Positions 59,525-61,700 of a stretch of DNA of 64,000 nt are shown piece by piece. Source of the DNA: an uncultured Selenomonadaceae bacterium (GTDB taxonomy: Bacteria > Bacillota > Negativicutes > Selenomonadales > Selenomonadaceae); NCBI GenBank assembly GCA_905234235.1, contig CAJOHN010000001.1:62001-126000 (forward strand), given 5' to 3'. The notes under the pieces were generated by a model, which was given only the letters and a program-made list of their open reading frames with translations, searched no databases and was not told where the DNA came from. The translations under genes were made by a program, and so were the position numbers. The first letter of the stretch is position 1; every line of letters starts with the position of its first letter.

Positions 59525-59540
59525 GTAAGAGGTGTTTTGT

Positions 59541-60641
59541 TTGGAGTATTTACAAAATATTGATTGGCTGGCGTTAGGGCAAAAGCTTATCGTGCCCGCG
59601 TGTATCTTAGCGTTTTCGCTCTTTGTGGGCGTAGTGCTGAATCAAATGCTGACGCGCAAGCTTGAACAAAAAGCTAAGGCTCATGAATCGGAGATACGCG
59701 GGATTTTTTTCCGAGCTCTGCGCGGCGTCCCGATTTCGTTATGCTTAGTTACGGGTCTTTATTGGAGCGTCACAACTTCCAATTTGCCGCCCGGTCTCGA
59801 AAGAATTTTTTCCTACGTTTTGTTTGCGGTTATCGTCTTTTCAATCACGCGTGTCTTTGAACGGACGCTTTCGGGCTTCATCAGATTGAAGTTTTCCGGC
59901 TCAAGCGACATGACGCAATCGACATTGCTCGATACGATTTTCCGCGTTGCCATTTACGCTTCGGGCGCGTTGATTGTCTTGGATTATTTCAACATTTCAA
60001 TCGCGCCGATTATGGCGGCTATGGGTGTTGGTGGTATGGCGGTTGCCTTTGGTGTTCGCGAGACTTTGGAAAATATTTTTTCGGGCTTGCAGCTTATCAT
60101 CTCTAAACAACTGCGCGTCAATGACTACATCAAACTTTCTACGGGCGACGAGGGGCGCGTTATCGATATTAACTGGCGATACATTACGGTCATGCCGCCG
60201 ACGGAGAGCAATGTTGTAGTCATCCCGAATAAAGTTATTGCCAGTGCCGTCACGACAAATTTTTCTCAGCCGCGTGATGATATTATCGTCGTCGTGCCGA
60301 TTGGCGTTTCTTATGACAGCGACCTTGAGAAAGTCGAGGAAGTTACCGTTGACGTTGCCCGCGAGTTGATGATTAAAGTTGACGGCTACGAACCTGAATT
60401 TGATTCTGACGGCGTTGACAGAAATAAACTCGCGCCGGTTGTTCGTTTCCAAGCTTTTAACGATTCGTCGATTGATTTCAATGCGGTTATGCACGTCCAA
60501 GTTTTTACCAATCAATATCTCCTTAAACACGAATTCATTAAGGCGATTACAAAGCGTTATCGCGAGGAGGGCATTAATATTCCGTTCCCGATTCGCACGC
60601 TCGATTTGCCTGATGATAAAAAAATTGAGTTGAGGAAGTGA
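59541..60641 (+). CDS. MscS family mechanosensitive channel
   Basis: A 366-residue small-conductance mechanosensitive channel homologue. It has N-terminal membrane helices (about 12-30, 58-76, 85-110), a pore helix with AAMGVGGMAVAFGVRETLENIF, and the beta domain starting RVNDYIKLSTGDEGRVIDINWRYI-like residues (NDYIKLSTGDEGRV). It releases solutes on osmotic downshift. Start: TTG at 59541, six bases after AGAGGTG. The intron-split gene follows six bases after the stop. Confidence 0.93.
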   Translation: MEYLQNIDWLALGQKLIVPACILAFSLFVGVVLNQMLTRKLEQKAKAHESEIRGIFFRALRGVPISLCLVTGLYWSVTTSNLPPGLERIFSYVLFAVIVFSITRVFERTLSGFIRLKFSGSSDMTQSTLLDTIFRVAIYASGALIVLDYFNISIAPIMAAMGVGGMAVAFGVRETLENIFSGLQLIISKQLRVNDYIKLSTGDEGRVIDINWRYITVMPPTESNVVVIPNKVIASAVTTNFSQPRDDIIVVVPIGVSYDSDLEKVEEVTVDVARELMIKVDGYEPEFDSDGVDRNKLAPVVRFQAFNDSSIDFNAVMHVQVFTNQYLLKHEFIKAITKRYREEGINIPFPIRTLDLPDDKKIELRK

Positions 60642-60647
60642 TTGCTT

Positions 60648-61658
60648 ATGATTATTGACGGCGTTAAGGTTAATTTCATCGGCATTGACGACGCCACACG
60701 CGAGGAAGCCGCTAATTATGTCGCTTACGTGCGCGGACGCGTGAATTCGCCCGTCAAAAACATTAACGTCAAACTCTGCGACGACGGCTTGGTTGATGTC
60801 AGCTACACGGCTCGCGGAGAAAAGTTTGAACGTATCAGAAGAGTGACGGGTCGTCCATATTAGAGATAGCCCGCAAAGTGACACTGTGGCAGAAATGCCG
60901 CTTTATACGCCGGACTTCTTAAGAGGTCGGAAGCAAAAAAATAGCGTATAAGGTTTCGGGGGAGGTCATTTTTATGACTAATCGCGAGTTCAGAAAGATT
61001 CCGTCATTAAAATTTTTGTATGAAGTTAGCGAGGACGGGCGTATTTTCCGCAATGTTAAATCCAAGAAACAAAACAAAATTATCGTTGACTATCACCACG
61101 CGTCCGCCGGATATTGTTTCACGTTTATTCACCGAGATAAAATTTGCCAACGAATTCCTATCGCGCGTGTTGTCGCTGAATGTTGGTTGGGGGCAAAGCC
61201 TGAAGGTTACGAGATTGACCATATCGACCGCAACAGCCAAAATAATCACTGGACAAATTTGCGTTACGTCACTAAGAGCGAACAGATGAAAAATCGCGAC
61301 CATAGCGGTATTAGCAGAATTGGCGCGGCGAACCTTGACGCTGCCAGAAGACGGAGGATGAAGCCTCTTGCGCTGATTAAAGGTGACGAACGCCATGATT
61401 TTGAATCGCAGACTGCCGCTGCTCGTTGGCTTACCGTTGAGGTTTGCAAAGACGTTGAACATATCCGTAGCAAATTCAAGAAACATCGCTCGCACGTTTA
61501 CGGTTATGACGTTATCTATCTGGATTTAGAGACTGTACGTGTCCGCCCTACGGGGCAAGAAACAGTCCATTAAGTATCTCGTTGGCTCGCTTGACCGTTG
61601 GAATGACGCTAAACAAGCTGAGGAACGCGACAGAGTTAAACACAACATTTTTGAATAA
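60648..61658 (+). CDS. NrdD C-terminus-like small protein, split by a group I intron
   Basis: Exon 1 is 60648-60851 (68 codons, ending FERIRRVTG) and exon 2 is 61575-61658 (27 codons, starting YLVGSLDRWNDAKQAEERD). Joined, they give an in-frame 95-residue protein. RVTGYLVG...RWN.AK..E..DRVKH matches the C-terminal signature that I know from class III anaerobic ribonucleotide reductases (NrdD), though no cysteines or full glycyl-radical domain are present, so a stand-alone small domain is likely. Unspliced, translation would end three codons into the intron (RPY, 71 residues). GAGGAAGTG precedes the ATG, six bases after mscS. A terminator follows exon 2. Family name is moderately sure; the split is very clear. 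Confidence 0.85.
60852..61574 (+). ncRNA. Group I self-splicing intron with HNH endonuclease
   Basis: A 723-base intron. P1: exon CGGGU (60847-60851) pairs with guide GCCCG (60869-60873), giving the required U-G pair at the 5' splice site. P10: GAGAUA (60863-60868), next to that guide, pairs perfectly with exon 2 UAUCUC (61575-61580). P3: GACAC-u-GU (60880-60887) with ACGUGUC (61537-61543). P7: GACUGU (61531-61536) with ACAGUC (61562-61567), inside the classic R (AGAGACU) and S (AAGAAACAGUCC) elements. P8: GCCC-UACG-GGGC (61545-61556). The last base is G (61574). Two more hairpins lie at 60888-60899 (GAAA loop) and 60901-60953. P4-P6 could not be assigned by eye, so the subgroup is open. Confidence 0.92.
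60974..61573 (+). CDS. HNH homing endonuclease (NUMOD4-HNH) in intron
   Basis: A 199-residue endonuclease that would cut intron-less copies of the target gene and so spread the intron. The NUMOD4-like segment is about 7-30 (FLYEVSEDGRIFRNV), the HNH domain about 60-105 (GYEIDHIDRNSQNNHWTNLR with His83 and Asn residues), and a NUMOD1-like DNA-binding segment follows (FESQTAAARWLTV). GGGGGAGG precedes the ATG. Residues 186-199 are encoded by the P7-P8-P7' core and the stop codon ends one base before the 3' splice site, so coding and ribozyme sequence overlap. Confidence 0.92.
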   Translation: MTNREFRKIPSLKFLYEVSEDGRIFRNVKSKKQNKIIVDYHHASAGYCFTFIHRDKICQRIPIARVVAECWLGAKPEGYEIDHIDRNSQNNHWTNLRYVTKSEQMKNRDHSGISRIGAANLDAARRRRMKPLALIKGDERHDFESQTAAARWLTVEVCKDVEHIRSKFKKHRSHVYGYDVIYLDLETVRVRPTGQETVH

Positions 61659-61659
61659 A

Positions 61660-61700
61660 AAAAAATCGGAGCCGCTCAATCGAAGGCGGCTCTTTTTGTT
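61660..61700 (+). terminator. Terminator after intron-split gene
   Basis: Perfect GAGCCGC/GCGGCTC stem with a ten-base loop and a TTTTTG tail, directly after the exon 2 stop. It supports exon 2 as the true gene end. Confidence 0.85.

Follow-up and report, generated by a model that had tools for sequence, protein, structure and literature searches.

Introns in phage ribonucleotide reductase genes are in print (PMC3653736, PMC2988022, PMC12363816), and more than 100 curated group I introns are held in RNRdb (PMC2795772). A close counterpart of the locus analyzed here is the nrdD (sunY) gene of phage T4, in which a group IA intron with the endonuclease I-TevII likewise interrupts the gene for a class III reductase; I-TevII belongs to the GIY-YIG type, whereas the endonuclease of our locus is of the HNH type. 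In the Jug phages of the gut, nrdD is fragmented in 95 of 104 genomes, with group I introns and HNH genes, and metatranscriptome reads back the splicing of 37 of 76 introns, with nrdD as an example and with one nrdD region that lacks splicing evidence (PMC12363816). These introns differ from ours in that they lie in phage genes, and the available text of that paper names neither the glycyl-radical codon nor a split enzyme.

At the protein level, two other systems are comparable. YfiD/GrcA is a small stand-alone glycyl-radical-domain protein, like the product of the gene described below, but it repairs a pyruvate formate-lyase that keeps its own domain (PMC8683613), whereas the NrdD considered here is without one. 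The NrdJa/NrdJb reductase is also split over two genes, but it belongs to class II (PMC9669993). Searches of the open-access literature turned up neither a split reductase of class III nor an intron placed at the glycine codon, and no insertion hot spot; the words "intron", "intein", "nrd" and "ribonucleotide" are absent from the genome paper on Quinella (PMC9585023). The suggestion of a preliminary description of this DNA that the intron may be undescribed is consistent with this literature, which sets the scope of that check.

Here, we report the analysis of a window of 64,000 nt from a genome of the rumen genus Quinella. Our reading, to which we assign a probability of about 0.87, is that the NrdD of this organism is split, that the small gene carrying the radical site is cut between its Gly and Tyr codons by a self-splicing group I intron spread by its HNH gene, and that a phage source of this intron is likely.

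The interrupted small gene and its partner NrdD

Positions 60648-61658 of the window form a single small gene that is cut by a phase-0 interval of 723 nt (Table 1). The translation of exon 1 ends in ...RRVTG, and the unspliced frame continues with RPY and then reaches a stop; exon 2 is YLVGSLDRWNDAKQAEERDRVKHNIFE, with the translation YLVG...NIFE. Re-reading the sequence bore out the frame, coordinates and pairings given in the preliminary description, including the 723-base gap, the RPY ending and the terminal G at 61574. The comparison with intron-less relatives that it had called for was also favourable: among 44 copies first scripted (43 from the genus and one class relative), 19 read uncut through RRITG-YL, 23 are interrupted at the exact site and 2 have no exon 2 in reach. 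Joining the exons keeps the frame, as had been claimed, and a Tyr codon, which the pattern of the script itself demanded, opens exon 2 in 39 interrupted genus copies. As for the terminator placed after exon 2, the hairpin is present, but the number of such sites is close to that expected by shuffling.

Table 1. Features of the interrupted gene and of its intron, by position in the window
Feature	Position	Strand	Basis or remark
mscS-like channel gene, neighbour outside the intron system	59532..60641	+	Pfam MS_channel_2nd/3rd/1st
Exon 1, stand-alone glycyl-radical protein gene, 68 residues	60648..60851	+	3' end is the radical-glycine codon GGT
P1 exon strand CGGGU, U.G at splice site	60847..60851	+	sequence
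Group I intron, HNH type (type B), 723 nt	60852..61574	+	pairings, 18 homologues
P10 strand GAGAUA, partner UAUCUC at 61575-61580	60863..60868	+	sequence
P1 intron strand, internal guide GCCCG	60869..60873	+	sequence
P3 5' strand GACAC	60880..60884	+	covariation
Extra hairpin, P3-P4 interval	60886..60901	+	59/66 cells paired, 3/4 pairs two-sided
P4/P5-like hairpin domain	60901..60953	+	P4 154/180 cells, P5 102/107 cells; covaries
HNH homing-endonuclease-like ORF, 199 aa	60974..61573	+	PF13392, PHROG HNH families
P7 5' strand GACUGU, bulged A ahead (by eye)	61531..61536	+	conserved
P3 3' strand GUGUC	61539..61543	+	covariation
P8 hairpin	61545..61556	+	70/72 cells, 2/4 pairs two-sided
P7 3' strand ACAGUC	61562..61567	+	conserved
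Exon 2, first codon is the Tyr after the radical glycine	61575..61658	+	sequence, intron-less relatives
Terminator-like hairpin	61668..61693	+	2 such sites found vs 1.6 expected in shuffles

Homologues of exon 1 occur in 37 of 60 genomes, the own genome counted. The window exons alone matched nothing fitting in NCBIfam and Pfam; a stray trehalose_OtsA row on them (E 0.032) is far under the cut-off. The HNH ORF, the 3' end of which overlaps the catalytic core of the intron, matches PF13392 (HNH_3) with 48.5 bits and E 6.6e-13 (cut-off 24.8), and it reaches 17.4 bits, under the cut-off, with NUMOD4.

The identity of the small protein follows from its intron-less relatives and from the NrdD protein encoded elsewhere in the same genomes. 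NrdD of the own genome stops at profile position 534 of 562, just ahead of the glycyl-radical domain, and in the genus, 34 of 37 genomes show an NrdD end at positions 531-541 (the exceptions are G009, G025 and G027); G015, G016 and G021 encode an additional full-length, unsplit NrdD. Intron-less small proteins match positions 531-562 of PF13597 above the cut-off in five of five cases, and a phmmer alignment places one of them on residues 704-738 of the Prevotella copri NrdD chain 8p23, through RITGYLVG. In the P. copri enzyme, Gly711 is the radical residue and Tyr712 comes next (PMC11226230); the 8p23 numbering runs 4 above that of the paper, a shift that we take to be a tag. The intron thus parts the radical-glycine codon from the following Tyr codon. 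Both hallmarks of the domain are present, namely the Gly-Tyr pair of RITGY, with the radical on Gly, and the RVKH tail. The preliminary description had called the gene "NrdD-like", which is right but too weak: the gene encodes the glycyl-radical module of a class III reductase, separated from the rest of the enzyme. That description also overlooked the position of the cut at the radical-glycine codon, the sharing of this position with other intron families and the two further HNH-bearing interruptions in nrdD.

Throughout the family, the same arrangement prevails. Among 61 genomes (the own one and 60 with a completeness of 95% or more), a separate domain was found in 57, in 56 by PF13597 beside an early-ending NrdD and in the own genome in interrupted form; G150 and G186 have an unsplit NrdD and no small gene, and in G318 and G344 the glycyl-radical domain was not found with PF13597. 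A second NrdD reaching the end of the profile is encoded by G094, G322 and G326. In 22 family genomes, both genes are adjacent on one strand, with 78-365 nt between the matches, and follow each other as the corresponding parts do in the unsplit protein. The class I/II reductase family PF02867 was found in 0 of 60 genus genomes, own counted, with positive results in 11 of 14 controls, and the own genome encodes the activase NrdG (148 bits, cut-off 126.1). No intact copy of the small gene was found in the own assembly, which at 85.7% completeness may lack such a copy or a further reductase.

For an intron-less relative, AlphaFold predicts an N-terminal strand-helix-strand-strand domain (mean pLDDT 80-88, residues 1-50), followed by a glycyl tail with pLDDT of 38-46; a Foldseek search with the predicted fold gave no match at E<=0.001. 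In other families of the class, NrdD of G044, G048 and G056 ends at positions 530-538 with the glycyl domain elsewhere, perhaps as a second, independent split.

Group I anatomy of the HNH-type intron

The interval in the window has 18 homologues with an HNH gene, including itself, referred to as type B, and their alignment carries the evidence for a catalytic RNA. The P3 pairing, which spans the ORF, is formed in 88 of 90 cells across all 18 introns, with two-sided changes in 5 of 5 pairs; none of 200 shuffles was equally good, and slid alignments gave 15-46 of 90. The first five pairs of P7 are formed in 90 of 90 cells and are identical in 18 of 18 introns, and therefore P7 itself shows no covariation. 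In P1, the GGU/GCC core is paired in 51 of 54 cells, conserved and not covarying, and the U.G pair is found in 16 of the 18, the remaining two having C. The four-pair core of P10 is formed in 63 of 72 cells, a value equalled by 10 of 200 shuffles, and a P6 candidate scored no better than shuffles. The terminal G is present in 39 of 39 introns of types A and B (type A is described below).

Absence of a match to the Rfam group I model had been named beforehand as counting against the intron. Indeed, Intron_gpI (RF00028) gave no match to the window, even at E values up to 10, and none to its relatives or on the whole own genome, while the same search recovered the T4 nrdD intron with 105 bits. 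We do not take this result as refuting, since RF00028 is a detection model and not a defining structure; the miss probably results from the ORF inside the core in type B and from an altered P7 in type A. The claim of a group I intron with an HNH gene is upheld by the covariation over 18 homologues, the intron-less relatives and the conserved exons. Within the group I assignment, P1, P3, P7, P8 and the terminal G hold; in the P4-P6 region, which is not canonical, the P4/P5-like hairpin covaries, P6 is unsupported and an extra hairpin follows P3.

Introns at the radical-site codons and their probable mobility

A search of 66 genus genomes (own counted) gave matches in 61, from which 76 copies of the small gene were scripted on DNA: 33 uninterrupted, 21 of type A, 18 of type B and four others, of which L042 and L212 have the type A start but are truncated by a contig end and L207 and L038 are group II introns. 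In total, 43 of 76 copies are interrupted, 23 by ORF-less group IA-like introns, 18 by the HNH type and 2 by group II introns. The intervals measure 203-393 nt in type A, which is ORF-less, and 663-746 nt in type B, which has the HNH gene; the lengths of the 39 introns of both types fall in all three phases (17, 12 and 10 copies). Left out of the 76 were eight copies uncut by query range (G081:C2, G075:C169, G067:C87, G067:C39, G087:C11, G080:C42, G076:C36 and G082:C135) and eight loci without the motif by script (L214-L221), among which L215 holds the 3' portion of a copy with a type A intron. The last exon base is C or G instead of U in 10 of the 39 introns (L014, L016, L019, L037, L197, L199, L204, L210, L213 and L030), and the guide base pairs with the non-U base in the four counted of these ten.

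The named genome collection gave 62 loci, of which 7 carry an interruption, those of Quinella sp. 1Q5, 1Q7 and 2Q5 among them. Of 300 class genomes searched, 84 that belong to the family but to another genus gave a match; among the matches listed, 81 of these 84 are uncut at the site, and G150, G186 and G320 match only inside long NrdD frames. Among the matches listed, interruption has so far been seen only in Quinella. An uninterrupted copy was not found in 25 of 31 intron-bearing genomes, all counted on incomplete assemblies; six of these (G015, G016, G021, G084, G085 and G088) have another candidate, which leaves 19 incomplete assemblies, the own one among them, without a detected alternative.

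A predicted structure of the type A introns with P1-P9 elements has 98.7% of cells paired, as compared with 30.0-40.4% in slid alignments, and 17 pairs are changed on both sides; this alignment covers 10 of 21 copies and omits L025 and L040, which have core deletions, and nine copies found later. Their P7 reads GCAUA/UAUGC, and the usual P7 of such introns is GACUA/UAGUC. By eye, they share the P4-P5 and P9 landmarks of the T4 nrdD intron, but the latter is matched by Rfam, whereas types A and B are not. T4 nrdD was also considered as a case of the same insertion site and rejected, as the T4 exon 2 keeps ...RRTCGYLG uncut. A model of the type A core built from seven sequences (R1) matched 22 of the 66 genus genomes, 27 times in total, with 24 matches at the glycine codon and 3 elsewhere. 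The 24 are the 21 known copies, two matches of which the 3' side alone is visible (G084:C24 and G085:C58) and G007:C116, a type A intron in an unsplit NrdD with a contig end falling inside the intron. Genome G034 carries both L025 and L040, the core deletions of which are complementary; decay, misassembly and help in trans are all possible. The group II introns L207 (G083:C17) and L038 (G026:C27) start 4 nt downstream, as judged by eye, and match Rfam group-II-D1D4-5 (RF02004) with E values of 7.8e-37 and 8.7e-10, respectively; L207 encodes a reverse transcriptase (RVT_1, 141 bits), and L038 is cut by a contig end.

The partner gene is interrupted as well. In the own genome, nrdD (G000:C3:160000-171500, minus strand, L058) lies in three pieces separated by two intervals with HNH ORFs; both have group I-like 3' ends by eye and no Rfam match, and the second sits, also by eye, in the Met codon of SCVATMGCRT. 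The VATMGC loop should, by comparison with the enzyme of PMC11226230, hold the thiyl cysteine. In L229 (G031:C122) and L230 (G015:C67), a stop-free in-frame insert of 360 residues lies between Gly and Cys of this loop; the L229 insert matches LAGLIDADG_3 and Hom_end, and intein splicing models gave no match to the inserts at E<=0.001. We read these inserts as putative inteins.

With a threshold of E<=1e-15, homologues of the HNH protein are encoded by 11 of 60 genomes (own counted), and 11 of their 12 loci are at the glycine-codon site (own counted, with two G007 pieces taken as one); L165 in G015 is the sole free-standing one, by eye. The own genome also has distant HNH homologues at G000:C11:5336-5683 (L002) and G000:C9:46965-47402 (L003), with 25-26% identity. 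Related HNH proteins with 55-60% identity are encoded on seven IMG/VR viral contigs (L352-L358), in 7 of 7 cases with a frame immediately upstream that ends in R[VI]TG, the motif also found upstream of the window intron; the two of these frames that were scanned are NrdD by Pfam. The viral introns differ in lying one nt further, inside the Tyr codon (by eye), and in having a full-size nrdD as host gene, and a search of the viral contigs for the type B 3' core pattern found nothing. The type A signature was found in at least 120 viral stretches, and R1 gave 97 matches in the 80 viral loci searched (L232-L311), where, in 25 matches viewed by eye, the frames resemble genes for terminase, tail proteins and other phage functions. 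Judged by these matches, the group IA-like family with the unusual P7 (GCAUA/UAUGC) is common in phage contigs.

The exons of interrupted copies remain under purifying selection. For exon 2, pN/pS is 0.14 in type A (21 copies), 0.18 in type B (18 copies) and 0.26 in uninterrupted genes (33 copies), ratios that are rough because the synonymous differences are large (0.63-0.76), and the 72 copies contain no stop. An exon tree implies at least 25 state changes, with a shuffled mean of 32.3 and an equally low number in 1 of 200 shuffles. By this rough tree, obtained by a quick method with 13 of 69 inner branches starred and 28 open, the intron seems to have been repeatedly gained and lost, gain and loss being indistinguishable.

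Proposed mechanism, alternatives and implications

In the proposed mechanism, the intron RNA would fold, a guanosine would attack at the U.G pair of P1, and self-excision would join GGU to UAU, giving a message for a protein of about 95 residues. NrdG would then charge this small protein with the radical, and the small protein would insert into the truncated NrdD. Acting as a homing endonuclease, the HNH protein would spread the intron to alleles that lack it, and the HNH type likely came from phage nrdD genes. Because the codons of the radical site hardly vary and cannot be dispensed with, they would offer introns a safe landing pad, at which two other intron families may have arrived independently.

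If the gene were instead broken by a non-splicing HNH element, the organism would do without the small protein. The lack of an Rfam match and the incompleteness of the genome would allow this, but the 39 interrupted copies keep their exons open and in register, with purifying selection acting on them, and the own genome shows neither an intact copy nor a class I/II reductase, which makes a broken gene highly improbable. That the frame is restored in some other way, by an intein, translational bypass or frameshifting, is brought to mind by the intein-like inserts in nrdD of two relatives; it is hardly credible for the small gene, where a stop follows soon after the site, intron lengths fall in all three phases and RNA pairing is conserved across the ORF. 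It is also very unlikely that type B is a different, merely group I-like ribozyme: the missing Rfam match, the covarying extra hairpin between P3 and P4 and the weakness of P6 point that way, but covarying P3 and P8 and an invariant P7 stand in pseudoknot order, and the P1 U.G pair (16 of 18) and the terminal G are those of a group I intron.

Another alternative concerns the protein, which might be a spare part for oxygen-damaged NrdD, similar to YfiD, and not an obligatory subunit. Spare parts of this kind have been suggested for other such enzymes besides the YfiD precedent (PMC8683613), and some genomes outside the family have a full NrdD plus a small protein. Yet NrdD of the own genome, like that of the 34 genus genomes with the early end, lacks the domain, and the neighbouring genes of the 22 family genomes keep the order of the unsplit protein; we consider a spare part quite unlikely and reject it for Quinella, where NrdD itself is without the radical domain.

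A more far-reaching idea, which we put forward as doubtful speculation, is that, in this family, the radical enzyme of class III consists of two proteins and keeps its storage radical on the small, separately made subunit, and that in Quinella a ribozyme in need of guanosine or GTP, a substrate of the enzyme, could gate all detected de novo deoxynucleotide synthesis, and so be more than a mere parasite.

If the reading of a split NrdD with a self-splicing intron in its small radical gene is true, a rumen genus would have to remove an intron exactly at the radical-bearing residue for its sole detected pathway to DNA precursors to operate. Group II introns as well as two group I families that are unrelated to each other would have converged on a stretch of 4 nt, and an intein-like insert and another HNH interval would have hit the predicted thiyl-cysteine loop of the partner protein, so that a single gene would allow a test of why mobile introns choose catalytic codons. 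With its stand-alone glycyl-radical subunit, the enzyme would represent a new class III architecture, in which the storage radical sits on a protein of its own, as it does in class I.
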